Assembly: GCA_017480785.1 (NCBI GenBank)
Contig: JAFURZ010000016.1
Location: forward strand, 1-64,000
DNA from: Bacteroidales bacterium
Lineage (GTDB): Bacteria > Bacteroidota > Bacteroidia > Bacteroidales > P3
Length of the DNA: 64,000 nt
Direction: 5' to 3'
Position numbers and translations under genes: made by a program. The notes under the pieces are model-generated. The model made no database searches, was not told where the DNA came from, and was given only the letters and a program-made list of their open reading frames with translations. Shown here piece after piece: positions 8,006 to 61,976 of the stretch; position 1 is the stretch's first letter; each line of letters starts with the position of its first letter.

Positions 8006-8839
8006 ATGGCTAAGATTGTACAAGGAATTACGGGCGGATTCAGCGGTTCGGTGGGTCCGGTGGTGGGCTACCAGTGGCGTGGCCGGTGGTGCATGCGGAG
8101 CAATCCGCGGATGGTGCGCAATCCGCGCACGGAGCGCCAGCAGGCGCACCGCATGATGTTCAAGGAGGAGGTGCAGCTGGCGTCGCGGCTGAACTGGGTG
8201 CTGCGCGAGACGTTCGACGAGCTGTCGCTGGCCGAGGGGCTGACGCCGTGCAACTACTTCATACGCGAGAACCAGCATGCCTTCGCGTGGAGCGAGGAGC
8301 AGCTGGCGGTCGACTGGGGCGCGCTGCGCCTCTCGACGGGGCCGGTGGCACCGGTGGCCTTCGGTGTGCCCGAGGTGACGGAGGAGACGGTGCTGACGAT
8401 AGCATTCGAAAAGAACCCGCTGCACGTGAGGGCGGACGCGCACGACAAGGTGTATCTGTATGTCTACTGCCCTGAGGTACAGAACGGTTACCTGGCGGCG
8501 CCGGTGTATCGCCACACGCAGAAAGTGAGCGTGGTGCTGCCGCAGATGTATGCCGGCAAGGAGGTGCACCTGTGGGGCCTGGTGCAGGACCAGCAGGGGC
8601 GGTGGTCGGAGAGTGTATATATTGGGTATGGAAGTCTCACCCCCGAAAGCCTCGACAGCCCGGACAGCCCGGACAGCCTCACAAGCCTCACCCCCAGCCC
8701 CTCTCCGATTGGAGAGGGGAGTGAATACCTCAGCCTCAACAATATCTCCCCCAATGGCCTCACCCCCAGCTCTTCGGGGAGCCACTCCCCCAGCCCATCG
8801 CCGAGTGGAGAGGGGGGATTGGAGGAGGTGCCGTTGTGA
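8006..8839 (+). CDS. DUF6266 family protein with a repeat-derived C-terminal tail
   Basis: A 277-residue protein. Its start, MAKIVQGITGGFSGSVGPVV, followed by a YQWRGRWCMRS-type segment and NPRTERQQAHRMMF, is what I recall of DUF6266, a Bacteroidota family of unknown function. The family part ends near residue 210. The last 65 residues are composed of a short SPDSPDS iteration and two copies of the family A palindromic repeat (LTPSPSPIGEG and a degenerate copy), so the native stop was probably lost or pushed downstream. No signal peptide is seen. It is the first gene of a plus-strand run; TamB follows after 60 bases. No function is inferred. Confidence 0.75.
   Translation: MAKIVQGITGGFSGSVGPVVGYQWRGRWCMRSNPRMVRNPRTERQQAHRMMFKEEVQLASRLNWVLRETFDELSLAEGLTPCNYFIRENQHAFAWSEEQLAVDWGALRLSTGPVAPVAFGVPEVTEETVLTIAFEKNPLHVRADAHDKVYLYVYCPEVQNGYLAAPVYRHTQKVSVVLPQMYAGKEVHLWGLVQDQQGRWSESVYIGYGSLTPESLDSPDSPDSLTSLTPSPSPIGEGSEYLSLNNISPNGLTPSSSGSHSPSPSPSGEGGLEEVPL
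8685..8721. repeat. Family A palindromic repeat (copy 1)
   Basis: Sequence CCTCACCCCC followed by the palindrome CCCCTCTCC-GATT-GGAGAGGGG. It is read in frame as LTPSPSPIGEG in the tail of the DUF6266 gene. Confidence 0.85.
8757..8817. repeat. Family A palindromic repeat, degenerate (copy 2)
   Basis: A diverged, interrupted version of the same unit (CCTCACCCCCAGC ... GAGTGGAGAGGGG), also read in frame in the DUF6266 tail. Confidence 0.6.
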
Positions 8840-8899
8840 CGGGATTTTATTTTCTTCCCTAAATAATAAAATAGGTTTTGCGGCGTTTATGAGGTTGCG

Positions 8900-11800
8900 A
8901 TGAGAACGGCATGGAAGATACTGTGGCGCGTATTGGCGGGGCTGCTGCTGACGGTGTATGTGGCGGTGGCGCTGCTGAACTATTCGCTGGTGCAGTCGTA
9001 CCTGGGCACGGCGGCGGGGCACCGCCTGTCGCGCGAATGGGGCGGCACGGTGAAGATAGGGGCGCTGCATGCCATGCCGTGGGACCACCTGGTGCTGAAC
9101 AACTTCCTGCTTGTATCGCCCGACAACGACACCATCTTCGACGTGGAGCGGCTGAGCGTGCACTTCAAGCGGTTCCCCTACGAGGAGCGGCACCTGTCGC
9201 TGGACCGTGTGTACATGCGCAACGGCTACTACCACCTGGCCATACGCCACGACAGCGTGGCCGACCGGAACAGGATTAACATGCACTACATTTTCGAGCA
9301 CTATGCGAGCGACAAGCCCAAGGAGCGCAAGAAGCACGGGCCGTTCACGGTCGACGTGGGGACGCTGACGCTGAACCACGTGCACTACAAGATGGACCTG
9401 CCCGAGATACCGGCCATGACGTTCCCCTACGGCGTGTCGATAGCGCACATGGAGTTTGTCGACATCGTGAGCCGCATCAAGGACATCCACGTGGTGAACG
9501 ACGACGTGACCTGCCGCCTGGTGAAGATGACCGCCGAGGAGCGGAGCGGCTTCAAGGTGAACCAGATAGAAGGCAACGTGCATGTGGGGCGCGACGACAT
9601 CACGGTGACCGACTTCGAGTTGCGCACCGAGCGCACCACGGTGAGGGCCGATGTGGAGATGCTGTATCGCCACTGGTTCTCGGGCAACTACTGCGACAGC
9701 GTGCGGCACGACATCAGGCTGAAGGAAGGCACCACGGTGGCGCTGGGCGACGCGGCCTACTGGGCGCCGTGGCTGTGGGGCGCCGAGACGCAGGTGGAGG
9801 CCGTGGGCTACATGAAAGGCACCATCAACGACATGCAGACAAGGATGTCGCTATACTGGGGCGAACAGTCGGGCCTGCTGGTGGCCGGCAACCTGACGGA
9901 CATCTCGCATCCCGACACGGCCACGGTGGATGTCGACATCGAGCGCCTGTGGACCAACCTCGACGACCTGGAGCCGCTGACCACACTGCTACACATCGAG
10001 CCCGGCATCCTGTCGCTGGCGCGGCAGGTGGACTATATCGACCTGTGCGGTCGTCTGCGCGGAGGCCTGCATACTTTGACGACGGCCAACCTGAACCTGA
10101 ACAGCGGCCTTGGCAACCTGCACGCCGACGCGCTCCTCTCCCCTATCGCCTCGGGCGGCATGCACTTCAACGCCGAGGTGGGCAGCCACGGGATGGGTCT
10201 CAGGCTGCTGCACAGCGACTGGCTGACCCACACGGGCTTCGCGCTGAGCGCCGTGGGCGACATCGGCGACCCGAAGGACCTCACCACCCTCTACGGCACC
10301 GTGGAGGGGCAGCTGATGAACAGCGTGGTGCGCGGCCAACGGCTGGCACCCATCGACCTGGCCTGCAAGGTGGAGGGCGGCGCCGGCAGCGTGAACATAG
10401 AGTCGACCGACAGCCTGGCCCTGTTGACCCTGCAGGCCGACTTCGACCTGGGCGACTCGCTGAAGCGGGCCCACTGCCTGGTGGATATTGAACAACTGAA
10501 CACCCTGGCCCTCAACCTGCTCCCCGAGAAGTACGGAGAGTTGAAGACCTCGGTGGAGATGGAATACGAGGGCTACGACCTGGAGACGATGCAGGGCGGC
10601 GTGGCGCTGCACGGCACACGGCTGGGGCCGTTGCAGATGGACCGTCTGGCGGTGAGTGCCGACGCCCGCGAGGGCTTCAAGGAGCTGCGCCTGCGGAGCG
10701 ATGCGGTGGACCTGTCGGTCGACGGGCGCTTCGACTATGCCGACCTGCCCCTCATCGTGCGCCAGATGGGTGCCGAGATGCTGCCGGCCGACCTCTTCCC
10801 CGCCGACAGCCTGACCGAGGAGGAGCTGGAAGAACTCAAGCAGAGCAACCTGCAGCTGCACCTGCTGTGGCGGGACGACGGCCGCTTCCTGTCGGCCCTG
10901 AGCGACGGGCTGACGATAGCGCGCAACACGCGCCTGACCGGCAGCTACAACAGCTCGGAGCAGATGAAGCTGGTGCTGCGGAGCGACTCGATACGCCTGG
11001 GTCCGGCCCTGCTGGGCGATGTGGGCCTCGACAGCCGCAAGGAGGGTACGGACTATGTGATGCGCCTGCTGTCGCAGGAGGTGAACATCGGCAGCGTGGA
11101 GCTGCTGCAACGGGCCGACCTGCAGCTGACGAGCAATCCGACCCGCAGCCTGCTGGAGCTGGCCTGGGGCTACGAGGACGCCCCGTCGCAGGGCGACGTG
11201 GAGCTGCGCCTGCAGGAGGGGCGCATCGACGTGCTCAAGCCGGGTTTCACCATCGGCGGCACGCCGTGGGAGCTGCAGGTGGCGAACCTGAGCGTGCAGA
11301 ATGCCGACGGCAGGCTGAGGCTGAACGGCGACGGCATCACGGTGCACAGCGACCGGCAGTCGGTCGACGCACGCCTGAGCCTGCAACAAGAGGCGGACGA
11401 CCTGCTGGAGCTGACCTTCAAACACTTTGCCCTGGGCGGCCTCACCGAGATAGTGCTGCAAGACAGCCCCGTGAGCCTCAGCGGCGACATTGACGGCCTC
11501 TTCTCGCTCTACGGCCTCAACGAGACTCCCTTCTTCAACGCCAACCTACAGATTGACAGCTGTGTGGTGAACCGTCAGCCACTGGGCAATGTGAAGCTGC
11601 GGAGCAACTGGAACGCGGAGCTGAACATACTGAACCTGCAGCTGGCCGGCAACCAGGTGGACGCCGACGGATGGGTGGCGCTGGGGAGCGACAACGCGGA
11701 GATGAACTTCAACGTTGGTTTCGATAGTCTGGAGCTGGCCCTGATAGCCCCCCTGCTGAGCAGCTTCTCGAGCCGCTTCGAGGGGCGGCTGCACGGCACG

Positions 11801-17883: not shown

Positions 17884-17893
17884 ATTCTTTTTT

Positions 17894-17947
17894 TCTCAAT
17901 CAGAACTAAAAGAACCATCAGATATTCTTTTAGTCCTGATTGAGATT
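17894..17947. repeat. Family E palindromic repeat, solitary copy
   Basis: Near-perfect inverted arms (CTCAATCAGAACTAAAAGAAC / ATTCTTTTAGTCCTGATTGAG) with an 8-12 base loop, between the ROK and GH92 genes. It shares its arms with 52163-52236 and with the six-unit array at 55981-56610. It could fold in the intercistronic mRNA. Confidence 0.8.
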
Positions 17948-17955
17948 TATTCTAA

Positions 17956-19821: not shown

Positions 19822-19930
19822 CCTCCGCCATTTTAACGGTAGTATTACGGTAGTATTACGGTAGTATTACGCTTTAAAAGCGTAATACTACCGTAATACT
19901 ACCGTAATACTACCGTTAAAATGGCGGAGG
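19822..19930. repeat. Family H: perfect 109-bp palindrome with internal triplicate
   Basis: Two 50-base arms are exact complements around a 9-base centre (CTTTAAAAG). Each arm contains three copies of ACGGTAGTATT and ends in CCTCCGCCATTTTA. It would form a very long hairpin or cruciform. A shorter, diverged relative lies at 37945-38030. Confidence 0.95.
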
Positions 19931-20013: not shown

Positions 20014-20021
20014 TAATTTTG
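20014..20021 (+). promoter_or_regulatory. Candidate -7 box of tsaD, almost leaderless
   Basis: TAATTTTG ends 9 bases before the tsaD ATG. No clear -33 box is present. If used, the mRNA leader is only a few bases long. Confidence 0.5.
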
Positions 20022-20030
20022 CAGCCGATT

Positions 20031-21113
20031 ATGACTACAATCCTAGCTATAGAATCCAGTTGCGACGACACGTCGGCAGCGGTGCTGCGCGACGACTGCC
20101 TGCTCTCCAATGTCATTGCGAGCCAGAAGGTTCACGAGCAATATGGTGGCGTGGTGCCCGAGTTGGCCTCGCGCGCGCACCAACAGAATATCATTCCCGT
20201 GGTCGACGCCGCCATCCGCCAGGCGGGCATCGGCAAGGAGGACATCGACGCGGTGGGCTTCACCCGCGGCCCGGGCCTGCTGGGCTCGCTGCTGGTGGGT
20301 GTGAGCTTTGCCAAGAGTTTCGCCACGGCCCTGGGCGTCCCCCTCATCGAGGTGAACCACCTGCAGGCGCACGTGCTGAGCCACTTTATACAGCCTCACC
20401 CCCTTACCCCTCTCCGATTGGAGAGGGGGGCAGATAGTACCGGCAATCCACTCCCCTCTCCAATCGGAGAGGGGCTGGGGGTGAGGCCGCAATTCCCATT
20501 CATCTGCCTGCTGGTGAGCGGAGGCCACACACAGATACTGCTGCTGCGCGACCATTTCGACATCGAGTGCCTCGGCACCACCATCGACGACGCGGCGGGC
20601 GAGGCCATCGACAAGGCGGCCAAGATTATGGACCTCGGCTATCCCGGCGGCCCCGTCATCGACCGGCTGGCCAAGGAGGGCGATGCCGACGCCTTCCACT
20701 TCGCCACCCCCCACATCGAGGGCTACAACTACTCGTTCAGCGGCATCAAGACGTCGTTCCTCTACTTCCTGCGCGACCGGCTGAAGGAGGAGCCCGACTT
20801 CATCGAGCGGCACAAGGCCGACCTCTGCGCCTCTATCCAGAAGACCATCGTCAGCTTCCTGCTGAAGAAGGTGGAGCGCGCCGCCCTGGACCACCACGTG
20901 CGCCAGGTGGCCATCGCCGGCGGCGTGAGCGCCAACAGCTACCTGCGCAGCGAGTTGCAGCGCATCTGCCACAAGCACCACTGGCAGGCCCTCGTCCCGC
21001 CGTTCCAGTTCTGCACCGACAATGCCGCCATGGTGGGCATCGCGGCCTATTTCAAATACCAGCGCGGCGAGTTCGCCGACATCAGCCTGCCCCCCTATAC
21101 CCGATCAAATTGA
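20031..21113 (+). CDS. tsaD: tRNA N6-adenosine threonylcarbamoyltransferase TsaD with an in-frame repeat insertion
   Basis: A 360-residue TsaD (Kae1/Gcp family), which transfers threonylcarbamoyl to A37 of ANN-decoding tRNAs, an essential modification in most bacteria. Seen: LAIESSCDDTSAAVL at the start, the metal site NHLQAHVLSH near 107-116, LVSGGHTQILLL, GEAIDKAAKI, YPGGPVIDRLA, FSGIKTSFL and AIAGGVSANSYLR. Between HFI (about 119) and FPFICLLVSGG (about 154) lies a 30-odd residue segment encoded by an inverted pair of family A repeats (20393-20487), where the family normally has about ten variable residues; the reading frame is preserved. The start at the ATG 20031 matches the family; the stop codon falls in the family C repeat that follows. 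Confidence 0.95.
   Translation: MTTILAIESSCDDTSAAVLRDDCLLSNVIASQKVHEQYGGVVPELASRAHQQNIIPVVDAAIRQAGIGKEDIDAVGFTRGPGLLGSLLVGVSFAKSFATALGVPLIEVNHLQAHVLSHFIQPHPLTPLRLERGADSTGNPLPSPIGEGLGVRPQFPFICLLVSGGHTQILLLRDHFDIECLGTTIDDAAGEAIDKAAKIMDLGYPGGPVIDRLAKEGDADAFHFATPHIEGYNYSFSGIKTSFLYFLRDRLKEEPDFIERHKADLCASIQKTIVSFLLKKVERAALDHHVRQVAIAGGVSANSYLRSELQRICHKHHWQALVPPFQFCTDNAAMVGIAAYFKYQRGEFADISLPPYTRSN
20393..20487. repeat. Family A composite element (inverted pair) inside tsaD
   Basis: A left copy (20393-20428) and an inverted right copy (20450-20487) around 21 bases. It is translated in frame as PHPLTPLRLERGA ... LPSPIGEGLGVRP. Confidence 0.9.
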
Positions 21114-38164: not shown

Positions 38165-38189
38165 GCATGGAACGGATGCCAGACGACAT

Positions 38190-41132: not shown

Positions 41133-43913
41133 TTATTTGGCCTGAACGGATTTAGCGGTGGCTTTGAGTACCTGTTCCACGACTCCTATCTTGTAGCCCT
41201 CGCTGTAGTAAAGGAGGCGTCCGTCTTTGTCAATCAGTGCGACAAGGGGATACTGAGGATTGGAAGCAGACTTGGTGGCTTCCAGGATACGTTGTTCCAA
41301 GGTACCGGCACGGTAGGCAAAGTCGGTATTCGTCAGCCCCCATGAGGGCATGCCGATGGAGGTGGGACCGACCATGAAGGTCATGCCGCCCCACTGCTTC
41401 ATCTCCTTCTGCAGCTGCTTTAGTTCCACGACGAGATGCTTCGAGGGCTCGCTGTAGACGCCGAGGTTGACATAGAGCATACCGGCGTCGCCGGCATAGT
41501 CCCACAGCTCGATGCCATCGAAGAGTTCGAGGTCCTTTTCAATGACGCCCAGCTCGTCGGTGCGTGCCAGGAGGGGCAGGATGACGATTTCCTTGATGAC
41601 CTTCTCGCCTGCCTTGACCTCGAAGAACTCTAATCGCGAGCGTACTGCCCCGTCGGGATAGCGGTTGCCGGTGCTTAGACAGTAGGTGCCAGGCTCGAGA
41701 CTGATGGTGGCGGGGAAGGAAGCCATGCGCGGGTCGTCCTCGAAGTCGAAGGTGCGCAGGTCGCCGTTCTCCAGCTTGGCTAGGGTGAAGTGGGACCAAT
41801 AGGTAGGAGCCTCACCCCCGAGTCCTCCGGCCTCACCCCCGACCCTTCTCCGATTGGAGAGGGGAGTAGTTAGTGTCAGGCTCCCCGATTGCTTGTTTGT
41901 AGCATTATTGTTGTTAAAATGGATTGCCCCCCAGCGGTTCCCACTCCCCTCTCCAATCGGAGAGGGGTCGGGGGTGAGGCTATAGATGGTATTGGTAGCA
42001 TTGTCCAGGTAGGCGGGCACGCCGGCGGCGCGACAGGCGGCCACGAAGAAGATGTCGCGGCTGTGGCTGTCGGCGCGGCGCAGCTTATAGACGCCCACGG
42101 GCGAGATGGGGCAGTTGTAGTAGTTGCTGCTGTCGTCGACCGTGATGCTGTCGACCACCCAACGGCGGATTTCCTCGGCGGTCATGCCCTTAAAGCAGGC
42201 TAGTTTCGCACGATAGGGACGCACCATCTCGTTGCTGATTCTTGCAGGCATAATTCCCTTCTTGTATGGAGAATATTCTTTTGCCAATTGATTCATCGGT
42301 GGCACCGCCCAATGTGCTTCCAACACCTCGGAGGTGATGTCGCGCAGGTCTTTGTCGCTGAAGCTGCATAAATAATCATAAAGGGAACTATACCTCTCCG
42401 ACGGTATTTGTTCACGGTGGCCATCTTCATATACAATGATACCTGTGTAATATTCCGTCTCTACCAAATCTTCCCCGGCATGATTATTAAGGAACTTGAT
42501 AATCTCGGCGTAATTGCCCTCGCTCTTACGGATAACCGCCCAAGCCTGCTCGTCGGTGAGGTTGGGGTTGGGTTTCACCAGCTGCCTATAGTTCTCCTTG
42601 GAGGGGAATGTGGTGGTATAGGCGCCTCGCAGCGAGTCCTCATAGGCCAGGCGGCGGGCGTTGGCGGAGGTCTCCTCCTCGGTGGCAACAACCTTAGGGG
42701 CACCGGCCACGGGGGGCACCATCTCAAACAGCCTCACCCCCGCCCCCTCTCCGTCTGGAGAGGGGAGTAGAATGTCTTTGTTAGCATTCTTTCTCAGAAC
42801 AAGGGTCAAGGTGCTATCTTTTCTTACGTCAATCCTCTCGAAAGCGAATAGGTATTCACCCCCCTCTCCAATCGGAGAGGGGTTGGGGGTGAGGCTCCAG
42901 ATTAATAAATCGCCCAGACCTGTGGTCAGAGAGGCCTTGCCCTCGGCATCGGTAGTCTGCGTGCTGAGGGTGTAGTATTCGGCATAGTTGTAGAGCTTGT
43001 ACTTCACCTGTGCACCCTCGACAGGCTGGCCGTCAGGGTCCTTGACGGTGACGGTGACGCGGCGCGTAGGGGCATAGTGGCTCAGCAGATTCAGCTCGGA
43101 ATACAATTCTGTATGCTTTACCACCTCCTCGTCACCCTTGTATTTGCCGAAGGCCTTCGAGTGCACCATCATGCAACGTGTGCTAGGCACGGAGAACCAG
43201 CCCATATCCAACCGCGGGTCGGGCTCGCAGGCCCCGAGGAACTTCCACTGACCATTGACATACACTTCTACCCAGGCGTGGTTATCGTCGCAATGCGCCC
43301 ATCGTGGCGTGTAGCACTGGCGGGCGGGGATGCCGACAGCACGCAGGGCGGTGACGGTGAAGGTGCTCTCCTCGCCGCAGCGGCCCAGCGAGGTGCGCAT
43401 GGTGGCCAAGGGGGCCGACGTGCGGCCGTCGCTGGCGCGGTAGGCCACATGCTCGTGGCACCAGTGGTTCACCTCCAAGGCTGCCTCCTCGATGTTCATG
43501 CCCATTACCCTCTCCTTCAGCTCGCGGTAGAACACCATGCGGGCGGTGTCGAGGTTCTCATTATTCACCCTGTACACCAACACGAAGTGACGGAACTCGT
43601 CCTCCGGCACCTCCTTGCCCCACGGCATCTCCCCGCGGGCCTTGAAGGCGGTACGCACCTGCTGCAGGAAGAACGACGGCTCATAGTCGGCCAAGTCGCT
43701 CAACGGCATGTAGGCATAGAGGAACTCCATGGCTTCACGTTCGGCACGGCAAAGGGTATCGAGCCGGACATCCAACATCGGGAACTCCGCCATGCGAACC
43801 TCGAAGTCAGAGTGCACCTCGGCACGATAAGCCTTGTCTGTAATAAAATGAGGATTACGCTGGCATGCTGCCAATAAAAGCATTGCTCCAGCCAACAGGT
43901 ATAGCTTCTTCAT
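41133..43913 (-). CDS. Transglutaminase-like lipoprotein carrying four repeat insertions
   Basis: 926 residues. Lipoprotein signal (LLLLAACQRN, Cys about 17). A transglutaminase/protease-like core lies at about 150-245: GRCGEESTF (Cys179), HCDDNHAWVEVYVNG (His212) and FLGACEPDP with Asp232. Beyond come beta domains and a second helical region (about 540-640, with SHSRDIFFVAACRAAGVPAY), and a C-terminal thioredoxin-like segment (LVALIDKDGRLLYYSEGY). Four stretches match family A elements: LTPNPSPIGEGGEY, LPSPDGEGAGVRL, LTPDPSPIGEGSGN, and TTPLSNRRRVGGEAGG. Without them the host reads as a continuous protein. It follows the 306-residue gene by 7 bases, so one transcript is likely. Substrate unknown; probably periplasmic or surface. 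Confidence 0.8.
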   Translation of the reverse strand: MKKLYLLAGAMLLLAACQRNPHFITDKAYRAEVHSDFEVRMAEFPMLDVRLDTLCRAEREAMEFLYAYMPLSDLADYEPSFFLQQVRTAFKARGEMPWGKEVPEDEFRHFVLVYRVNNENLDTARMVFYRELKERVMGMNIEEAALEVNHWCHEHVAYRASDGRTSAPLATMRTSLGRCGEESTFTVTALRAVGIPARQCYTPRWAHCDDNHAWVEVYVNGQWKFLGACEPDPRLDMGWFSVPSTRCMMVHSKAFGKYKGDEEVVKHTELYSELNLLSHYAPTRRVTVTVKDPDGQPVEGAQVKYKLYNYAEYYTLSTQTTDAEGKASLTTGLGDLLIWSLTPNPSPIGEGGEYLFAFERIDVRKDSTLTLVLRKNANKDILLPSPDGEGAGVRLFEMVPPVAGAPKVVATEEETSANARRLAYEDSLRGAYTTTFPSKENYRQLVKPNPNLTDEQAWAVIRKSEGNYAEIIKFLNNHAGEDLVETEYYTGIIVYEDGHREQIPSERYSSLYDYLCSFSDKDLRDITSEVLEAHWAVPPMNQLAKEYSPYKKGIMPARISNEMVRPYRAKLACFKGMTAEEIRRWVVDSITVDDSSNYYNCPISPVGVYKLRRADSHSRDIFFVAACRAAGVPAYLDNATNTIYSLTPDPSPIGEGSGNRWGAIHFNNNNATNKQSGSLTLTTPLSNRRRVGGEAGGLGGEAPTYWSHFTLAKLENGDLRTFDFEDDPRMASFPATISLEPGTYCLSTGNRYPDGAVRSRLEFFEVKAGEKVIKEIVILPLLARTDELGVIEKDLELFDGIELWDYAGDAGMLYVNLGVYSEPSKHLVVELKQLQKEMKQWGGMTFMVGPTSIGMPSWGLTNTDFAYRAGTLEQRILEATKSASNPQYPLVALIDKDGRLLYYSEGYKIGVVEQVLKATAKSVQAK
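41808..41866. repeat. Family A repeat (copy in the transglutaminase-like gene)
   Basis: Two adjacent partial and full CCTCACCCCC tails and one palindrome core (ctctccgattggagagggg), left orientation. Confidence 0.85.
41943..41981. repeat. Family A repeat, inverted partner
   Basis: CTCCCCTCTCCAATCGGAGAG core and GTGAGG tail; inverted relative to 41808-41866. Confidence 0.88.
42731..42766. repeat. Family A repeat (third in the same gene)
   Basis: Left orientation with one substitution in the loop (CCGTCTGG). Confidence 0.88.
42858..42896. repeat. Family A repeat (fourth in the same gene)
   Basis: Right orientation; core CCCCTCTCCAATCGGAGAGG; translated LTPNPSPIGEG. Confidence 0.88.
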
Positions 43914-47848: not shown

Positions 47849-47886
47849 ACTCCCCTCGCCAATCGGAGAGGGGTTGGGGGTGAGGC
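47849..47886. repeat. Family A repeat between etfB and etfA
   Basis: Right orientation; fills almost the entire gap of about 40 bases between the etfB stop and the alternative etfA start, and abuts the etfB stop region. Confidence 0.85.
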
Positions 47887-47888
47887 CG

Positions 47889-48785
47889 TTATCCAATTAT
47901 CTTGTCGTTCAACAATTCTTTGATGAGGGCCTCGATGTCGGCATCGCTGGCCGTGAGGGTCTTGCTCTCCTTGGCCTGGAAGGCTATGCTCTGCACCTCC
48001 TTCACCTTGGTCGGCGAGCCACTCATGCCGCACTGGCTGGGGTCGCCGTCCACGTCGGCCACGCTCCACTGCGTGAGGTTGAGGTATGGCCTTTCCTCAT
48101 AGAGGTGAGAGTATCTACTCCCCTCTCCAATCGGAGAGGGGTTGGGGGTGAGGCTCCTTTCCAGCGGGCAGGCGGCATACTTGTACTTCATCACCAGCTT
48201 GGCATTGGCGGGGCGGCACTCGGCGGCACTGCCATTGACGGTGACCACCAGCGGCAGCGGGGCCTCCACCACCTCCACGCCGCCGTCAATCATGCGGCGG
48301 ATGGTCGCCTTACCGTTCTCTATCTTGAGTATCTCTTCTGCATAGGTCACCTGATTCAGTCCCAGCTTCTGTGCCACCTGCGGACCCACCTGGGCCGTGT
48401 CGCCGTCAATAGCCTGACGACCACCAATCACAAGGTCCACATCGCCAATCTTCTGGATTGCCGTAGCCAGCGCATAGCTCGTAGCCAAGGTGTCGGCACC
48501 GGCAAACAGGCGGTCGGTCAGCAGCCAGCCCGTGTCGGCACCGCGGTAGAGACCCTCACGGATAATCTCGCCGGCCCGCGGCGGACCCATCGTCAGCACC
48601 CCCACCGTCACGTCGGGCTGCTGCTCCTTGATGCGGAGCGCCTGCTCCAGCGCATTCAGGTCTTCGGGATTGAAAATGGCGGGCAGCGCGGCACGGTTCA
48701 CCGTCCCCTCCGCCGTCATGGCATCCTTGCCAACATTTCGTGTATCAGGTACTTGCTTGGCAAGTACAACAATCTTCAAACTCAT
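47889..48785 (-). CDS. etfB: Electron transfer flavoprotein subunit beta with repeat insertion
   Basis: 298 residues. Typical start MSLKIVVLAKQVPDTRNVG, then INPEDLNALEQAL-like NPEDLNALEQALRIKE, VLTMGPPRA, LVIGGRQAIDGDTAQVGPQV and PTKVKEVQSI, which mark EtfB. Near residues 211-224 the peptide SLTPNPSPIGEGSRYS is encoded by a family A repeat (48117-48155), between KYKYAACPLER and HLYEERPYLNLTQW, where the family has a surface segment. The frame is intact, so the insertion is probably tolerated. Promoter at 48808-48838; etfB is the first gene of the etf/ACAD operon. Confidence 0.93.
   Translation of the reverse strand: MSLKIVVLAKQVPDTRNVGKDAMTAEGTVNRAALPAIFNPEDLNALEQALRIKEQQPDVTVGVLTMGPPRAGEIIREGLYRGADTGWLLTDRLFAGADTLATSYALATAIQKIGDVDLVIGGRQAIDGDTAQVGPQVAQKLGLNQVTYAEEILKIENGKATIRRMIDGGVEVVEAPLPLVVTVNGSAAECRPANAKLVMKYKYAACPLERSLTPNPSPIGEGSRYSHLYEERPYLNLTQWSVADVDGDPSQCGMSGSPTKVKEVQSIAFQAKESKTLTASDADIEALIKELLNDKIIG
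48117..48155. repeat. Family A repeat inside etfB
   Basis: Right orientation; core CCCCTCTCCAATCGGAGAGG, tail GGGGTGAGGC; translated LTPNPSPIGEG. Confidence 0.9.
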
Positions 48786-48838: not shown

Positions 48839-48888
48839 AAAAAAAGTCTCATAAGGTCATTTTTTTAACTTTGCAATCTGCCGTGCAA

Positions 48889-48992
48889 TATAAGGCCATT
48901 TTGCCGAAAAGGCGAAAATCGACCCACAAAAGTACCCAACTTTCCCACCATAGTACACAACTTTCCCATTGCGCCCACTTCCTGACGCAATG
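48889..48992. repeat. Family I dispersed repeat, copy 2 (inverted)
   Basis: Reads GCAATATAAGGCCATTTTGCC, CGACCCACAAAAGTACCCAA, CAACTTTCCCATTGCGCC: the inverse of 38061-38164 with scattered changes. Lies between etfB and a T9SS cargo gene. Confidence 0.85.
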
Positions 48993-52154: not shown

Positions 52155-52162
52155 TATTTTTT

Positions 52163-52236
52163 TCTCAATCAGAACGAAAAGAACAAAAAGAAAGGATGTC
52201 TGTTTCTGATAGTTCTTTTAGTTCTGATTGAGATTT
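52163..52236. repeat. Family E palindromic repeat, intergenic copy
   Basis: Arms CTCAATCAGAACGAAAAGAAC and GTTCTTTTAGTTCTGATTGAG flank about 30 bases (agaaaggatgtctgtttctg). Lies between the subtilase stop and the next gene start. Confidence 0.85.
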
Positions 52237-52241
52237 AAGTT

Positions 52242-55200: not shown

Positions 55201-57185
55201 AGAGAGATTGATGGACCATCGCAGTCGTAGTTAGAGAAACTAGCCAGACGACCGCCTTGTTGGGTAGCTTGCACACCCAGCACGAAGGTGAATGCCCCAG
55301 GAAACTGAGGTGGAGCTAAACAACCACCGCAACACATAGTATGAATTGCAAAACCATCATTCCCTGCCGACGCCACCAGCACAGCAGTCTGGTAGGCCAC
55401 AGCCAGGGCTTGCTCCATAGCAATAGAATATGCATAGGTCCCAATACTCATACTGATGACGTCGGCGCCGTTCTGGGCAGCGTAGTTGATGCCGCGCACG
55501 ACGGTGGCAATGTCGCCGCTGCCGTCGCTCTGCATCACCGTGACGGGCATAATCAGTGCGTCGGGGCAAGCACCGGCGATGCCGATGCCGTTATTGGTGA
55601 CAGCTCCCGCGATGCCGGCACAGTGGGTGCCGTGGCTGTTGAAGTCGTGCATCTCGGCCGTCTGGTTGACGAAGTCCCAGCCGTGCACGTCGTCGGCGAA
55701 GCCATTGGCGTCGTCATCCTGGCCCGCGGCGCCACCCTCTTCGGCGGGGTTGGTCCAGATATTTTCGGCCAGGTCAGGGTGGTCGATGTCCACACCCGTG
55801 TCGATGATGGCGATGATGGGTCGCCACGTGCTGTCACGCTTCGGCGCCGTCAGCAGGCTGTCGATGCCGCAGGCGGGGATGCCCCACTGGAGGGAGTACA
55901 TCGGGTCGTTCGGCTGCCCGGCAGCGTCTTTTCTCCCGCCCTGCGGGCGTAATCCGGAAATCCTATCCGGAGCAGTATAGGTTGCGTCGGCAACATTCAA
56001 AGCGCAATCAGAACTAAAAGAACCAAAAGAAAGTTCTGATAGTTCTTTTCGTTCTGTTTGAGACATAATATCTGATTGAAGATAAGTTGCGTCGGCCACA
56101 TTCAATGCGCAATCAGAACTAAAAGAACCAAAAGAAAGTTCTGATAGTTCTTTTCGTTCTGTTTGAGACATAATATCTGATTGAAGATAAGTTGCGTCAG
56201 CCACACTCAATGCGCAATCAGAACTAAAAGAACCAAAAGAAAGTTCTGATAGTTCTTTTCGTTCTGTTTGAGACATAATATCTGATTGAAGATAAGTTGC
56301 GTCGGCAACATTCAAAGCGCAATCAGAACTAAAAGAACCAAAAGAAAGTTCTGATAGTTCTTTTCGTTCTGTTTGAGACATAATATCTGATTGAAGATCA
56401 GTTGCGTCGGCAACATTCAAAGCGCAATCAGAACTAAAAGAACCAATAGAAAGTTCTGATAGTTCTTTTCGTTCTGTTTGAGACATAATATCTGATTGAA
56501 GATCAGTTGCGTCAGCGACATTCAAAGCGCAATCAGAACTAAAAGAACCAAAAGAAAGTTCTGATAGTTCTTTTCGTTCTGTTTGAGACATAATATCTGA
56601 TTGAAGATAAGTTGCGTCAGCCGAATTTTCAATTTTCAATTTTGAATTTTCAATTTCACCCAATGCGAAGCAGCGGTAGTTCGGCTCGGCGTATTCCACC
56701 TCGTCCAGCGCCGCGAGGGCCTCTATCAGCTCGTATTCGTTGTGTGCGCTCTCGGCCGAGAGGGTGATGAGGTAGAGCTGCGACAGGTCGTGGTCGCGCA
56801 CCTCGCCGCCGCCGTAGCTGGCGCTGCGGCGCGGCTCACGCGGCATCACGAAGGTCGGGCACAGCTGCTCCACGCGCTCCACGACAAAGCTGTCCAGCAC
56901 CGCCTGTATGGCCGGGCATTCTATCCTCCCGCTCGCCTTGCTCGCGTAATCCAGAGATCCATTTCCAGGATTTACGGATTTCGGCCCCTGGCCGGGAGAT
57001 TTAATCGTGTACTGGCTGTAGTCCTGCAACTTGACGATGGCCTGCAGCGGCACGGCGGCGTGGCGTTGCCATTGTTCGAGGTGCACCACCTCGTCCTCGT
57101 TGTTCACCGCCGCATCGAACGGCGTCTGCGCCGCCAGCGGCATCACCGCCAGCAGCAGCGCGAAAAGGATACTGATGTGTTTCAT
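52242..57185 (-). CDS. T9SS-sorted subtilase with tandem-repeat propeptide and dockerin-like module
   Basis: 1647 residues. Signal peptide (ending MPLAAQ), an N-terminal propeptide-like part (to about 180), then 210 residues of six exact-length 35-residue repeats (family E, about 189-398), then the S8 peptidase: Asp462 (AIIDTGVDIDHPDL), His518 (SHGTHCAGI), Asn609 (ASAGNDG) and Ser697 (NGTSMACPLVAGG), a complete catalytic triad. Beyond are beta and Ig-like modules, an EF-hand-like dockerin pair (GDANGSYAVDVADVI and ADVNGDGQINVLDIVGI, about 1410-1460) and a T9SS type A sorting domain (about 1570-1647, ATAYPNPFCERVRLEL ... GIYFATLYADGQ). It also holds family J insertions (TIKSPGQGPKSVNPG and ISGLRPQGGRK) and a family C piece (ENSKLKIENS). 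The region 53750-54650 is AT-rich. Likely a secreted or surface protease; the propeptide inserts may delay maturation or be neutral. Confidence 0.88.
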   Translation of the reverse strand: MKHISILFALLLAVMPLAAQTPFDAAVNNEDEVVHLEQWQRHAAVPLQAIVKLQDYSQYTIKSPGQGPKSVNPGNGSLDYASKASGRIECPAIQAVLDSFVVERVEQLCPTFVMPREPRRSASYGGGEVRDHDLSQLYLITLSAESAHNEYELIEALAALDEVEYAEPNYRCFALGEIENSKLKIENSADATYLQSDIMSQTERKELSELSFGSFSSDCALNVADATDLQSDIMSQTERKELSELSIGSFSSDCALNVADATDLQSDIMSQTERKELSELSFGSFSSDCALNVADATYLQSDIMSQTERKELSELSFGSFSSDCALSVADATYLQSDIMSQTERKELSELSFGSFSSDCALNVADATYLQSDIMSQTERKELSELSFGSFSSDCALNVADATYTAPDRISGLRPQGGRKDAAGQPNDPMYSLQWGIPACGIDSLLTAPKRDSTWRPIIAIIDTGVDIDHPDLAENIWTNPAEEGGAAGQDDDANGFADDVHGWDFVNQTAEMHDFNSHGTHCAGIAGAVTNNGIGIAGACPDALIMPVTVMQSDGSGDIATVVRGINYAAQNGADVISMSIGTYAYSIAMEQALAVAYQTAVLVASAGNDGFAIHTMCCGGCLAPPQFPGAFTFVLGVQATQQGGRLASFSNYDCDGPSISLYYSEEQFYNYELSAPGVGIISTVPNGGYRSYNGTSMACPLVAGGIASLMQRREYLTKEILFGDLINYSQEFQPVDFWTVYNADSVAPAILQLVAMEINDTAYGDSSMYADAGERLQLYPTVRTVWGPTDSVELWLEFQEFEDTNTLQILQNHVQLGRPISAYAKAKSVNPIDIRIDSNVVDGRHIRLVLCAASRYCADTLRHSFVMNVTNGVKLHGMIVGNYTLYPNVQYIVTSNVALPSDDTLFIKPGTTLKIKDSCSINATIMAIGKPDSVITFTKTDLGQPWGSLSNMREKGCFDYCVLEYSMVGSYVIATAHSIKNTLIKNCGRGELIHRCDSIDALNIFYSDVYTGPAIQLLGYPRPKCMNANLIDNYSSAYNGMISRIFDADYDGSKLGLERNYNVYPNTYSFDGSYLNNNVFSNNTVFNYRCANYNPEVTVLDSNYHGSFKEEIIRQGVYDFNSPNYINTYGFLDLSRRQNHPSSDAHGIVWKVEVNGYDAQDEFDSIIPLGVGTHEFKVYFNRAMDTSITPMVAMGVRPPYTQTAIGENASWSDDSTIYTAYLTLTGRSAIDGLNRIYVNGAQDDEHFEIPYENQRFNVYVASSGSMSAGFQATPGIGKVDLEWNDQEVNYADFLGFNIYRYQYDSLLTNRHYESGVGYVYDTVWGPTDTIRLNQTLVQDTMFTDFDVVPGERYYYYYKILSTSLTENSPSKTVSCVPHSSIRGDANGSYAVDVADVIATIGYVTGQHPQPFLFEAADVNGDGQINVLDIVGIINIILYGDQGSKGIHDQQTAVYSVENDTLWVETPVALAGLQFTLGGCTRSQVEVLEALRPFECATVEENGNLTMLFYSMSGATVPAGKTALLRVGNGEWGVENIALSDAQGQNVVPLNGNQVGITEAVQAQFATAYPNPFCERVRLELTVGDYRTATVVFTDLTGRTVETRSLSTPTAGRYSMEWDATGCPRGIYFATLYADGQKAHTIKLVVK
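55932..55973. repeat. Family J element, short copy inside the subtilase gene
   Basis: TCTCCCGCCCTGCGGGCGTAATCCGGAAATCC; read in frame as ISGLRPQGGRK, at the 3' end of the family E array in coding order. Confidence 0.7.
55981..56610. repeat. Family E tandem array, six 105-bp units inside the subtilase gene
   Basis: Six copies of a 105-base unit, each holding the CAGAAC(T)AAAAGAAC / GTTCTTTTCGTTCTG inverted arms. Units differ by only a few bases (for example TTTGG to ATTGG, and AACAT to CACAC). It is in frame (35 codons) and free of stops on the coding strand. Confidence 0.97.
56623..56657. repeat. Family C repeat inside the subtilase gene
   Basis: AATTTTCAATTTTCAATTTTG units at the 5' boundary of the family E array; peptide ENSKLKIENS. 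Confidence 0.75.
56926..56998. repeat. Family J element inside the subtilase gene (N-terminal side)
   Basis: CTCCCGCTCGCC...GCGTAATCCAGAGATCC ... CCAGGATTTACGGATTTCGG ... GGCCGGGAG; read in frame as IKSPGQGPKSVNPGNGSLDY. Confidence 0.75.
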
Positions 57186-58229: not shown

Positions 58230-58325
58230 GAGCCGCGTAGCGGCGACAGATAATAGCCGTGGGCGCAAGCCCACGGAAAACAGTCACCCCGAACCCATGA
58301 GCCCCGGCGGGGCGACACATAATAG
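58230..58325. repeat. Family F palindromic block truncating the HEPN gene
   Basis: AGCCGCGTAGCGGCGACAGA, CCGTGGGCGCAAGCCCACGG and AGCCCCGGCGGGGCGACA units; related to 26236-26444. Its right end lies just before the stop of the broken HEPN frame. Confidence 0.8.
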
Positions 58326-59224: not shown

Positions 59225-60034
59225 CTAGAAGTCCCACATGCCGCTATCCTTGAGGAATTGCAGCAGGTCGCGGCTGACGCTCTCGTTCATCGCACGCGGA
59301 TAGCGTTTGGTAGTGAAGATTTCGCAGTAGTTGCGGGTGCCGTTCTCCTCGACCATCCGGCGGTTGAAGGGGTCGTCGTCGCGCACACGGTGGCTCTCGA
59401 TGAGCTCGTCGTCGGAGGGCACATGGTAGGTCTCGCGGTGCAGGATGGCGTCGGTGGCGAGTCGTTCGCTGCGGCGGGGCTCCTCGGCGGGGTGACCCAT
59501 GGCCAGGGCGATGACGGGCACCACCCCTTTGGGGCATTGCAGGAGGTCGGCTATCTGGCGCGTGTTGTAGTTGACGGTGCCGAGGTAGCAGAAGCCGAGG
59601 CCGCGGTCTTCGGCGGCGAGGCAGATGTTCTGTGCACAGAGCGACGCGTCGACCAGGGCCGAGGTGAACCAGAGGAGGTTGCCGTAGGGCTCGTCGCACT
59701 GGTTGAGGCGGCAGTAGTGGTGGTAGCGGGCCACGTCGACGCAGACGGTGAGCCACAGCGGGGCCGTGGCGCACTGGCCGAAGTGGAGCTTGCAGAGCTC
59801 GGAGCGCAGAGGCTCCTGCGTGGTGGCTATAACGCTGTATAGCTGCATGTTGCCCGTGTTGGAGGCACGGATGCCGCATGCGAGCATCTCCTGCAGCAGG
59901 GCTTCGTCGACGGCCTCGTCGGTGAAACGGCGCACCGAGCGGTGGGCCAGCATCAGGGGCCTCACCCCCGACCCCTCTCCTGCAAGGCGAGGGGAGCAGG
60001 TAGCGAGACCATCGTTTCTTTCGTTATTATCCAT
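59225..60034 (-). CDS. Nitroreductase family protein, N-terminus from a repeat
   Basis: 269 residues. Nitroreductase core: HRSVRRFTDEAVDEALLQEM, CGIRASNTGNMQLYSVI, SLCAQNICLAAEDRGLGFCY and VIALAMGHPAEEP (FMN-binding). FMN-dependent oxidoreductase of unknown substrate. Residues 1-26 (MDNNERND..., then SPRLAGEGSGVRP) are encoded by the interior and one arm of a family A inverted pair (59959-60097), so the start codon lies inside the mobile element; an ATG at codon 28 (59953) may be the ancestral start. Last gene of the fab operon, followed by a strong terminator. Confidence 0.85.
   Translation of the reverse strand: MDNNERNDGLATCSPRLAGEGSGVRPLMLAHRSVRRFTDEAVDEALLQEMLACGIRASNTGNMQLYSVIATTQEPLRSELCKLHFGQCATAPLWLTVCVDVARYHHYCRLNQCDEPYGNLLWFTSALVDASLCAQNICLAAEDRGLGFCYLGTVNYNTRQIADLLQCPKGVVPVIALAMGHPAEEPRRSERLATDAILHRETYHVPSDDELIESHRVRDDDPFNRRMVEENGTRNYCEIFTTKRYPRAMNESVSRDLLQFLKDSGMWDF
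59959..59996. repeat. Family A repeat, left arm, in the nitroreductase N-terminus
   Basis: CCTCACCCCCGACCCCTCTCCTGCAAGGCGAGGGG: a diverged core. Confidence 0.8.
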
Positions 60035-60056
60035 ACTACGTTATTTTTCCTATATG

Positions 60057-60097
60057 CTCCCCCTCTCCAATCGGAGAGGGGGCCGGGGGGGGAGGCT
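60057..60097. repeat. Family A repeat, right arm, abutting the fabG stop
   Basis: CTCCCCCTCTCCAATCGGAG core; its last bases are next to the fabG TAA. Forms an inverted pair with 59959-59996. Confidence 0.88.
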
Positions 60098-60840: not shown

Positions 60841-60850
60841 AACCATAAGG

Positions 60851-60885
60851 GCCTCACCCCCTGCCCCTCTCCGATTGGAGAGGGG
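60851..60885. repeat. Family A repeat upstream of fabG
   Basis: Left orientation, CCTCACCCCCTGCCCCTCTCC core, 11 bases upstream of the fabG start. Confidence 0.88.
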
Positions 60886-60910
60886 TGTTGATCGAGGACT
60901 TTTTTAATTG

Positions 60911-61348
60911 TTAGTTAAGCCTCACCCCTTGCCCCTCTCCGACTGGAGAGGGGAGGAAATGAGTGTTTTGTTTATTCTCTTTTAATTTGTTTTTTATTTC
61001 TGTCATTACTGCTGATAAATCGTATTCAACATCCTCGTTGGAAAATCTCATAACCAAATAACCCATCTTTTCTATGTCAACACTTCTCATTTGGTCGTCT
61101 TGCCGCTGTTCCATGGTGTTGTGATATCCACCGTCAACCTCAATAACCAACCGTTTCTCTATACATACAAAGTCTGCAATATAGTCACCTATCGGATGTT
61201 GTCTTCTGAATTTACATCCAGTTTTACCGTTTCTCAACTCATCCCACAATAGCTGTTCTGCAACGGTCATGTTGTGTCGGTTAACCTTTGCATAGCCCTT
61301 CAGCACATCGTACCTATCGGGAGATGAGGTGGCGTACCATGATTCCAT
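60911..61348 (-). CDS. DUF559 domain protein (Vsr-like PD-(D/E)XK nuclease) enclosed by inverted repeats
   Basis: 145 residues: MTVAEQLLWDELRNGKTGCK, FRRQHPIGDYIADFVC, EKRLVIEVDGGYH then MGYLVMRFSNEDV. The pattern D-(18)-E-x-D is that of DUF559, which is related to the Vsr/very short patch repair endonucleases. It is inserted among fab genes with which it has no metabolic relation. The C-terminal residues (LPSPVGEGQGVRLN and stop) are encoded by the family A repeat at 60919-60956; the inverted partner is at 61363-61401, so the gene sits exactly where the short spacer of a composite family A element normally is. This suggests it is either the enzyme that moves such elements or a passenger. Confidence 0.85.
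   Translation of the reverse strand: MESWYATSSPDRYDVLKGYAKVNRHNMTVAEQLLWDELRNGKTGCKFRRQHPIGDYIADFVCIEKRLVIEVDGGYHNTMEQRQDDQMRSVDIEKMGYLVMRFSNEDVEYDLSAVMTEIKNKLKENKQNTHFLPSPVGEGQGVRLN
60919..60956. repeat. Family A repeat, arm at the 3' end of the DUF559 gene
   Basis: Left orientation; core CCCCTCTCCGACTGGAGAGG. Encodes the last residues of the DUF559 protein. Confidence 0.88.
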
Positions 61349-61362
61349 GTTGCGACAGCATT

Positions 61363-61401
61363 ACTCCCCTCTCCAATCGGAGAGGGGCCGGGGGTGAGGC
61401 T
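61363..61401. repeat. Family A repeat, arm between fabZ and the DUF559 gene
   Basis: Right orientation; CTCCCCTCTCCAATCGGAGA core; abuts the fabZ stop codon. Confidence 0.9.
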
Positions 61402-61826: not shown

Positions 61827-61835
61827 AATCATTTG

Positions 61836-61872
61836 GCCTCACCCCCAGCCCCTCTCCGATTGGAGAGGGGAG
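61836..61872. repeat. Family A repeat, left arm, before fabZ
   Basis: CCTCACCCCCAGCCCCTCTCC core; inverted partner at 61932-61976. Confidence 0.88.
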
Positions 61873-61931
61873 TTGGTCGAGGGCTTTTTTTGGTTATTTA
61901 TTTCGTTTTAAATGCTCAATACTACAGCACT

Positions 61932-61976
61932 CCTCCCCTCCCTCTCCCATCGGAGAGGGGGCCGGGGGGTGAGGCT
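61932..61976. repeat. Family A repeat, right arm, after fabF
   Basis: CTCCCCTCCCTCTCCCATCGG core, 3 bases from the fabF stop. The pair spans 61836-61976, about 140 bases in a fab intergenic gap. Confidence 0.88.

Follow-up and report, generated by a model that had tools for sequence, protein, structure and literature searches.

The window, a 64-kb stretch of Bacteroidales DNA, carries conserved genes and copies of a short palindromic repeat, here called Family A. A sequence-only reading had proposed a palindromic element with at least 15 copies, and the element is real: the window holds 17 distinct units at no more than nine mismatches to GCCTCACCCCCNNCCCCTCTCCNNNNGGAGAGGGGAGT (22 matching rows, reduced to 17 since palindromes match on both strands), and each of five first-order Markov shuffles of the window held none. 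The unit of 38 bases comprises a C-rich tail (GCCTCACCCCC) and a 9-4-9 hairpin; units are denoted F on the + strand and R on the − strand.

Positions were determined by the unit search, combined with Pfam and the comparison with relatives. Pfam confirmed DUF6266, TsaD, transglutaminase, the etf pair, nitroreductase, DUF559 and a dehydrogenase of fabG type. A complete 94-bp dimer, F then R, lies in frame inside tsaD (dimer, 20394..20487; gene, 20019-21113, +; orthologues compared). The transglutaminase gene (41133-43913, −) harbors two pairs, namely F at 41830..41867 (+) with its partner R at 41943..41980 (−), where several relatives have other repeats, and F at 42731..42768 (+) with R at 42858..42895 (−); the relative G001 has Family A at the same site as the F unit of this second pair. 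An R unit is in frame in etfB (unit, 48117..48154, −; gene, 47889-48785, −), and a solo R unit occupies the etfA-etfB gap (47849..47886, −), where G001 has a full REP-DUF559-REP element. The two F units assigned to the DUF6266 gene, at 8685..8722 (+) and, degenerate with six mismatches, at 8781..8818 (+), are in the ORF, but both lie 3' of the Pfam domain, which spans residues 12-207 of 277. An F unit (59959..59996, +) is likewise in the nitroreductase ORF (59225-60034, −), covering about codons 13-26 at its 5' end; similarity to two relatives begins downstream of it, at residue 27-28, and the unit may therefore lie outside the protein.

The remaining units flank the fab genes. An R unit (60057..60094, −) lies between the fabG-type and nitroreductase genes. 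Between the fabG-type and fabA-like genes is a REP-DUF559-REP element (60851..61400, −; compared with relatives), with an F unit at its outer left end (60851..60888, +; also found by the inverted-repeat test), a second F unit that encodes the C-terminal tail of DUF559 (60919..60956, +; alignment), the DUF559 gene itself (60914..61348, −) and an R unit at the right end (61363..61400, −). In the fabA-KAS gap, an F unit (61836..61873, +), similar in its inner flank to the DUF559 element, and an R unit (61938..61975, −) delimit an element at 61836-61975, a possible deletion derivative by flank comparison.

Anatomy and distribution of Family A

The whole genome contains 73 Family A places at three mismatches or fewer, at least two of which (C7:18535 and C8:61849) are the opposite strand of a unit already counted, and the reversed control gave none. 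Relatives also carry Family A. An assembly artefact is unlikely, because other genomes hold insertions at the same places.

The natural form of Family A is two facing units in inverted order. Among neighboring units within 650 bp, 91 pairs face each other and 11 face away. Dimers of exactly 94 bp account for 14 of the 56 elements in the genome, all 14 inside ORFs, and the one dimer that was folded as DNA formed a strong hairpin (z −14). The dimer form had been missed in the earlier reading. The loop is GATT in 57 of 77 units of the genome and differs elsewhere, giving genome-specific versions. A 5' GTRG tag within 6 nt of the hairpin was present in 0/77 units of the genome and 0/211 units of others; GTRG within 6 nt on the 3' side was found in 37/77 and 69/211, respectively. 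CGTC was absent from the commonest bases adjoining the hairpin. A known RNA family was rejected as the identity of Family A: in Rfam searches of the window and three loci (L372, L374 and L039), the matches at gathering scores numbered three, each in the window and away from every Family A unit.

Family A was found in at least 115 stretches, with 80 among the matches listed, and is not confined to its own lineage: the matches listed include Prevotella, Hoylesella, Hymenobacter, Cytophagales, Flavobacteriales and one Xanthomonas record. For a repeat of S. meliloti, we take the RIME elements of Rhizobium to be possible relatives. Literature matched by the palindrome letters was unrelated by title among the matches listed.

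In-frame insertion into host proteins

Orthologues without Family A exist, and their comparison reveals in-frame insertion in conserved proteins. In TsaD, CinA and an ABC-F ATPase, comparison with sister species placed the insertion in short variable segments, which are presumably surface loops. TruB, NqrA and CobW, as well as proteins that have UvrA or RadA-like domains, are further in-frame hosts. At four insertion sites, every spacing, filled or empty, equals 1 modulo 3; at two single-unit sites, agreement with the unit modulo 3 holds in 13 of 14 rows; and for the two sites in the transglutaminase gene and the one in etfB, it holds in all rows except one that is partly aligned. The GH2 orthologue set (12 of 18 loci under the coverage limit) and locus L238 were excluded for coverage. 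By eye, no target-site duplication was evident at the inspected sites, where the flanks are too diverged for base-exact calls.

Agents other than Family A also fill these segments, because unrelated repeats occur at the same places of tsaD, CinA, ABC-F and transglutaminase in several sister species. Such recurrently filled segments had likewise escaped the earlier reading. A single ancestral insertion followed by losses is not favored: filled and empty species are interspersed (the support of some nodes is only 50-65). Palindromic elements are inserted in frame in proteins of Rickettsia and Wolbachia (RPE), and the likeness to them suggested earlier was borne out for in-frame insertion and for absence from some orthologues.

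Reading frames of the intragenic copies

The unit was described earlier as stop-free, and it is open in five of six frames. This openness is not a special property, because shuffles of the unit's own letters average 4.55 open frames, with 54% having five or more; stop-freeness as an adaptation was thus rejected, since base composition alone yields similar openness. By contrast with chance, one frame (F1) is preferred: it was used by 33 of 65 placed units in the named records (five ambiguous units left out), as against 1 in 5 expected, by 28/56 when one unit was taken per locus (p 5e-7), and by 32/66 units in the genome itself. The own-genome frame data gave a dimer count of 12 to 1, which includes a 103-bp copy in CinA and leaves out mixed-phase copies in TsaD and GH2.

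The position relative to genes varied with the data set. In the genome itself, 45 of 58 elements (56 from the dimer/element count and two added by hand), or 41 after subtraction of four judged spurious, lie in a long open frame, and random window places do so in 78% and 74%. Family A as an extragenic REP was therefore rejected for this genome, since most copies are in ORFs at a rate near that of random places. In the named records, 65/151 units are in genes versus 618/920 random places, i.e., genes are avoided.

A DUF559 gene bracketed by facing units

By sequence, the DUF559 protein of the window is a member of the Vsr-like PD-(D/E)XK nuclease family. It scores 110.4 bits with PF04480 (cut-off, 20.6) and matches PDB 3hrl (E 5e-20), and each of E31, Q50, D59, E70, D72 and H76 is conserved in 39-41 of 41 sequences (three sequences duplicate others). 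Among genuine DUF559 genes met by chance in the available loci, six of seven are bracketed by facing units, and the remaining gene is truncated where its stretch ends. Units upstream of DUF559 mirror the downstream units. In the fabG-fabA gap, DUF559 is present in the window, G004 and G007, and the gap is short and without the gene in G022 and G010. The earlier reading had counted DUF559 as a host gene; it is probably the Family A element's own gene.

Long inverted repeats flank 26 of 34 DUF559 genes, compared with 2/341 and 0/56 random ORFs. The 34 genes were drawn from 40 matches, with six weak or partial ones left out. From the set met by chance, matches at L001-L003, L007-L009, L038 and L040 (E 1e-5 to 1e-11) were omitted, being judged to align a REP-coded peptide with the REP-coded tail of the query, and L025-L028 were omitted as repeats of the window. 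In a plasmid set from cyanobacteria, Deinococcus and proteobacteria (16 places, from among the 30 listed of 45 records, picked by organism before the flanks were viewed), inverted repeats occur at 9/16 DUF559 genes versus 5/228 cross pairs. The genes scoring below 40 in this test numbered 8/34 in the main set and 7/16 in the plasmid set; other ORFs in the DUF559 loci scored 40 or more in 3/26 cases. Among the near matches to the Azospirillum DUF559 neighbors, no empty site was found. In a side test, palindromes with CGTC bracketed GIY-YIG nuclease genes (11 of 34 records examined, one of them the A. lipoferum case from which the test arose).

The association varies among genomes. DUF559 is missing from G014, G021 and G097, each with 6-8 Family A copies, and H. 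shahii has a partial match only. A sister hairpin family, and not Family A, supplies the DUF559 flanks in P. jejuni, P. veroralis and P. multiformis. A clear identity between the flank loop and the main loop among dispersed copies was found only in G000 (the others being comparable in part); the loops at the G089 flanks are of types that are minor in that genome. The inner ends of DUF559 elements resemble dimer cores (12/26 at 8 of 12; random, 2.3%), as do other Family A units nearly as strongly (85/256), and so this likeness was rejected as proving that DUF559 elements gave rise to the dimers. This comparison used all 26 ends and a harder control; an earlier one had used 19/26.

Proposed mechanism

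We consider it fairly probable that Family A is a REPIN-like selfish element, with REP-DUF559-REP as the autonomous form, dimers as its miniature copies and DUF559 as the agent that spreads them. The autonomous form would be a unit, DUF559 and an inverted unit; the 94-bp dimers would be non-autonomous miniature copies, and the single units remnants. The DUF559 protein would cut either the target or the ends of the hairpin (or a site close to them), and repair or copying after the cut would then place new dimers elsewhere. Copies in genes would last only if they preserve the frame and if the host protein can bear the peptide (preferably ...LTPxPSPxGEG...), which would limit them to a small number of its variable segments. 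That DUF559 is an active enzyme, that it performs the cutting step and that the dimers descend from the DUF559 form are what we infer. The gene could also be cargo.

Alternative explanations

In REPINs, the partner is a RAYT, and Family A might be a classical REPIN whose movement depends on a RAYT or another Y1 (HUH) transposase acting in trans, whether present or lost. The architecture is the same as that of REPINs (in the accessible part of PMC3116915), the genome has three Y1 genes, Y1 genes here often have inverted repeats (12/30), and the tail GGGGTGAG fits the GGGGWSAS motif of some TIRYT repeats (PMC3733652, in part). However, the three Y1 genes are flanked by other hairpins, and no clear Family A unit was found within 1.5 kb of these or of the Y1 genes in the available loci (about one third of the matching rows), with one weak look-alike 1.2 kb from the Y1 gene in L197. 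Twenty-three further Y1 loci also had no clear unit, with weak look-alikes in L282, L289 and L294. Furthermore, seven cultured Prevotella/Hoylesella genomes with 17-92 Family A copies had no match to PF01797 (Y1 transposase), and the 5' GTRG tag is absent from all units scored. The RAYT partner was therefore rejected as the main reading, and we regard this explanation as quite unlikely.

Alternatively, Family A may not be a mobile element in its own right: slippage, template switching or recombination would build up inverted and tandem repeats in insertion-prone segments, with DUF559 as cargo or a neighbor. The unrelated repeats at the tsaD, CinA, ABC-F and transglutaminase sites of sister species fit this explanation, but the same 94-bp build recurs at 14 places of one genome, and the bracketing of DUF559 far exceeds that of random ORFs and recurs in other phyla; we consider it unlikely. 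A regulatory role, in which the palindromes would terminate transcription or govern RNA stability at DUF559 and other genes and the bracketing would not be due to transposition, seems very improbable. The strong hairpin of the folded dimer and the T runs after some units in gaps agree with such a role, whereas the location of most copies inside ORFs and the mirrored units upstream of DUF559 argue against it.

Comparison with known systems

The REP-DUF559-REP reading places Family A beside REPINs/BIMEs with RAYTs, which share short GC-rich palindromes, inverted doublets, dispersal within one genome and a DNA-processing enzyme gene bracketed by the same palindrome. Unlike GTAG-tagged REPs, Family A lacks the 5' GTRG tag and lies mostly inside ORFs in its own genome; unlike RAYT-linked REPs, its partner is the Vsr-like DUF559, not HUH-Y1, and the seven carriers lack PF01797. 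IS/MITE pairs include an autonomous relative with the same ends; REP-DUF559-REP has Family A ends and is a candidate for such a relative, its mobility and its parentage of the dimers being putative. RPE and intragenic REPs are alike in their in-frame palindromic insertions in unrelated proteins (PMC3733652, in part). As known here by description, RPE differ in phylum; Family A adds a nuclease-family partner gene and segments reused by unrelated repeats.

The earlier reading knew of no description of this repeat, but REPs inside genes are already in print: the available part of PMC3733652 describes CGTC-tagged REPs as palindromes with dimers, also in genes and not tied to transposase genes. Dimers and in-gene copies are shared with Family A, and the CGTC tag is not. 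The same source, as far as accessible, describes TIRtrons (TIRYT) with a small enzyme gene and long terminal inverted repeats, sometimes dispersed, whose motif GGGGWSAS fits GGGGTGAG; TIRYTs, however, are tyrosine transposases, and the gene here is DUF559. Caulobacter VsrA, a DUF559-domain protein linked to the DNA damage response, is discussed as a possible mismatch-repair enzyme, and the word 'palindrom' is absent from the accessible text (PMC12907096). A literature search, mostly short of full text (PMC3733652, PMC6006769, PMC12907096 and PMC3116915), found no DUF559-REP link.

A wider reading, to which we give slightly under an even chance, is that small single-domain nucleases, not HUH transposases, propagate whole palindrome classes: DUF559 for GGGGTGAGG-type tails in Bacteroidota, Cyanobacteria, Deinococcus and proteobacteria, and GIY-YIG for CGTC-tagged REPs. 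In the genus of the window, the same protein segments would be entered repeatedly, giving new peptides for housekeeping enzymes. The natural in-frame insertions in TsaD, CinA, TruB, NqrA, CobW and the proteins that carry UvrA or RadA-like domains, some with sister-species controls, could serve to study how old proteins acquire new segments. If true, the proposed mechanism would offer a candidate job for DUF559, a domain whose name marks its function as unknown and which occurs here in several phyla, and would supply palindromic repeats that lack an engine with a candidate one. It also opens the spread of such repeats in the absence of a RAYT to testing.

Copy number and architecture of Family A

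Family A is a genuine repeat in the style of a mobile element, and proteins tolerate it. Scanning the window with GCCTCACCCCCNNCCCCTCTCCNNNNGGAGAGGGGAGT, allowing up to 9 mismatches, yielded 17 distinct units (22 rows), and none in the five shuffles used as a control. In its own genome (2.25 Mb in 19 contigs, the window being positions 1-64000 of contig 8), the repeat occupied 73 places at ≤3 mismatches (37 forward, 36 reverse), at least two of which are the opposite strand of a unit already counted; the control gave 0. The stretches around these places contained 82 units, which group into 56 elements. Many units faced each other at a distance of exactly 58 bp and so form a 94-bp dimer, laid out as tail, hairpin, 24-base core of the AGTGGATACCCCTTGCATTCTACT type, hairpin and tail; exact 94-mers accounted for 14 of the 56 elements. 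One dimer, folded as single-stranded DNA, was paired along its length (−49 kcal/mol versus −17 in shuffles). Across the own-genome loci, the 115 named loci and sampled stretches of two further genomes, neighbors within 650 bp faced each other in 91 cases, faced away in 11 and pointed in the same direction in 24.

The window also contains a perfect inverted repeat with 54-base arms of 11-base tandem copies (19822-19930), 9-base tandem repeats of ACTATAGGA type (24575-24697), a 104-base inverted repeat pair with 92% complementarity, 10.7 kb apart (38064-38167 and 48879-48982), two Acido-Lenti-1 RNA matches (26238-26283 and 58231-58276) and, at the edge of the contig, a partial 16S rRNA gene (1-922).

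Spread of Family A and its relation to Y1 transposases

Matches to Family A, some of them weak, were found in 10 of 37 genomes of the genus and 3 of 24 of the order. The carriers among the matches listed included Prevotella veroralis, P. jejuni, P. vespertina, P. multiformis and P. conceptionensis, as well as Hoylesella, Hymenobacter, Cytophagales and Xanthomonas cannabis. The loop tends to be genome-specific: GATT in 57 of 77 own units, and elsewhere mostly GAAT (P. jejuni, among the matches listed), AAGG (P. conceptionensis) or CGTG (the relative G004), which points to amplification within each lineage.

We considered whether Family A is a RAYT element, mobilized by a Y1 transposase (PF01797). 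The three Y1 genes of the own genome (L031, L032 and L033) have their own flanking hairpins, such as GCCCCGTAGGGGC, other than Family A. No clear Family A unit adjoined the Y1 genes in the loci examined, about one-third of the Y1 matches, or at a further 23 Y1 loci, and seven cultured genomes with 92, 64, 74, 17, 54, 17 and 90 Family A places had no PF01797 match. In addition, PMC6006769 describes a 5′ GTRG tag as a feature of REPs, whereas this tag was present in 0 of 77 own and 0 of 211 other Family A units; GTRG was sometimes on the opposite, 3′ side of the hairpin (37 of 77 and 69 of 211, respectively). We therefore rejected a RAYT partner as the main reading, on the Y1 loci and carrier genomes examined.

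Family A within genes and its reading frame

An element was scored as in-ORF if an open frame ran across it with at least 50 codons on either side. By this mechanical rule, 45 of 58 own-genome elements were inside ORFs, or 41 after four host ORFs were judged spurious. Since random window places satisfied the rule equally often (78% for 38 bp, 74% for 94 bp), Family A neither avoids nor seeks ORFs in its own genome. Under a 60-codon limit, it avoids them in the named records of other genomes (65 of 151 units, compared with 618 of 920 random places). All 14 exact dimers were in ORFs, three of them in one ORF without a Pfam match. The hosts with Pfam matches include TsaD, EtfB, transglutaminase, DUF6266, TruB, NqrA, CobW, CinA, glycosyltransferases and one protein with Radical_SAM_N; two dimers are in an ABC-F type ATPase and four units in a protein with UvrA domains, and another host we read as RadA.

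The sequence-only reading had stressed that the unit is nearly stop-free. It is indeed open in five frames, but this openness is not special, as shuffles of its own letters average 4.55. The frame bias within genes, which that reading proposed to compare with chance, was real: one frame was preferred. In the own genome, where the two halves of one dimer are not independent, 32 of 66 units translate as LTPxPSPxGEG and 18 as PLSxxRGxGGEA. In the named records, at least one of which (L058) may belong to the window's genus, the five open frames held 33, 13, 10, 7 and 2 of 65 placed units after five ambiguous units were dropped; with one unit per locus, the first frame was used in 28 of 56 (p = 5e-7 against one-fifth). 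Because insertion cannot see the frame, the simplest reading is selection on the peptide.

Filled and empty sites in orthologues

The comparison of orthologues with and without the repeat, also proposed from the sequence, recovered both kinds. Of 17 sister species, 12 show a gap just a few codons long at the site of the window's tsaD dimer, and the gap in G002 is somewhat wider. The site is occupied in G004 and G007 by their own version of the dimer and in G001 and G024 by unrelated repeats. At two ABC-F sites, CinA and one GH2 site, every flank-to-flank length was 1 modulo 3 (1, 10, 13, 22, 25, 28, 31, 34, 37, 49, 58, 61, 64, 73, 85, 91, 94 and 103, the 91 being due to a misplaced flank). Each of the two GH2 sites with a single unit had 13 of 14 rows in agreement with the 38-base unit modulo 3. 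The two transglutaminase sites (ten sister species) gave 1 and 0 modulo 3, respectively, the latter bar one partly aligned row, and all ten relatives agreed modulo 3 at etfB.

In protein alignments, in which only insertions of at least six residues were counted, five of 18 TsaD sequences had insertions, all at columns 126-128 (335 core columns); five of six CinA insertions were at column 140 of 411 (17 sequences), and six of 15 ABC-F insertions at column 305 of 602 (20 sequences). We infer that the filled segments are surface loops. In a tree of 19 species built from the three proteins, in which several nodes are weak, filled species were scattered among empty ones.

At these protein segments, sister species (L221, L228, L254, L265, L272 and L242) carry inverted or tandem repeats of unrelated kinds (GTGGAAA, GAATTTTG, GCGTTATTG and CTAG types), whose lengths keep the frame. 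A second dispersed family (AATCAGAACTAAAAGAACC / TTCTTTTAGTTCTGATTGAG) occurs in the window (17888-17949, 52157-52237 and 55872-56696) and also in G018 (transglutaminase segment, L209) and G010 (a GH2 segment, L244).

DUF559 genes bracketed by palindromes

In the etfB-etfA gap of the relative G001, a DUF559 gene lies between two facing Family A units, and the window's DUF559 gene (60914..61348, minus strand) is likewise bracketed. Seven genuine DUF559 genes were met unsought in the loci; six lie between facing units, and the remaining one is truncated by the end of its stretch. A PF04480 search gave 40 matches in 22 of 30 genomes. We aligned the 300 bp to the left of each gene with the reverse complement of the 300 bp to its right, and 26 of 34 DUF559 genes reached the threshold score of 40. 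Among random control ORFs (100-200 codons), this score was reached by 2 of 341 from repeat-rich loci and by 0 of 56 from the relatives' loci; flanks paired across genomes can score equally high where both share one palindrome family. The threshold was also reached by 3 of 26 other ORFs of the DUF559 loci and by 12 of 30 Y1 genes. We read Family A type ends in eleven of the 26; others have sister hairpins, as in three Prevotella genomes. Eight sister ends were sought in samples of 100-160 kb from the respective genomes, where six recurred (9, 5, 5, 3, 2 and 1 matches; shuffles, 0 to 0.1) and two did not.

The same arrangement was found among 16 DUF559 genes on plasmids of cyanobacteria, Deinococcus and proteobacteria, nine of which scored at least 40 (cross pairs, 5 of 228). 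The Pseudanabaena and S. meliloti ends likewise have a CTCACCC-plus-hairpin build. The 2.4-kb S. meliloti stretch, which includes an IS4 transposase, has matches at 475 places, spread over 150 records from Rhizobiaceae plus a few others; among the weaker matches, many cover the 45-base ends alone. In Sphingomonas, DUF559 lies between sufB and sufC, beside dnaG and inside the transhydrogenase gene row, as it lies inside the etf and fab gene rows in the window's genus. The sufB-sufC gap of Xanthomonas sacchari contains two hairpins, and no gene is annotated there. At L374 (Pseudanabaena), L143, L309, L330 and L334, the DUF559 domain is within a longer open frame or a longer annotated protein, which looks like read-through of the element.

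Measured between match ends, the fabG-fabA gap is short in G022 and G010 (about 25 and 18 bp, respectively). The window, G004 and G007 have a DUF559 gene in this gap, and G001 has one in the next. In that next gap, the window itself carries two facing units, and their inner flank is similar to the inner flank of the window's DUF559 element (score 29, reached by 0 of 1000 shuffles). Fourteen DUF559 elements of the Family A type supplied 26 inner ends, of which 12 matched the dimer half-cores at ≥8/12 (random, 2.3%). Since other Family A units share this likeness (85 of 256), it is a trait of the unit, and we discarded it as proof that the dimers descend from DUF559 elements.

The window's protein matches Pfam DUF559 at 110 bits. 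Among solved chains, the endonuclease-like protein 3hrl is nearest to it in sequence, and PvuRts1I follows as a weak second match. E31, Q50, D59, E70, D72 and H76, which we take from Vsr to be the catalytic residues, are conserved in 39 to 41 of 41 DUF559 sequences, three of which repeat others. The Caulobacter protein VsrA, which has a DUF559 domain, is required for a DNA damage response in cells without a methyltransferase, according to PMC12907096.

The bracketing would link DUF559 to the movement of Family A, although no movement itself was seen. DUF559 was absent from three low-copy carriers (G014, G021 and G097), H. shahii had only a partial match, and the loop of the DUF559 flanks was clearly the main loop of the dispersed copies in the own genome only. 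DUF559 may be cargo.

GIY-YIG genes and CGTC palindromes

In the sufB-sufC gap of A. lipoferum, a GIY-YIG nuclease gene is bracketed by palindromes with CGTC. The inverted-repeat test, applied to plasmid records, scored at least 40 at 8 of 11 GIY-YIG genes (L376, L378-L380 and L382-L385; 7 of 10 without A. lipoferum) versus 8 of 108 cross pairs, and CGTC stood beside the palindrome in seven of the eight. CGTC REPs were reported without association with a transposase gene in PMC3733652, the text of which mentions neither "GIY" nor "DUF559". This association deserves a study of its own. The interest of Family A itself lies not in its openness, but in a nuclease-family gene bracketed by palindromes across phyla and in the reuse of the same protein segments.
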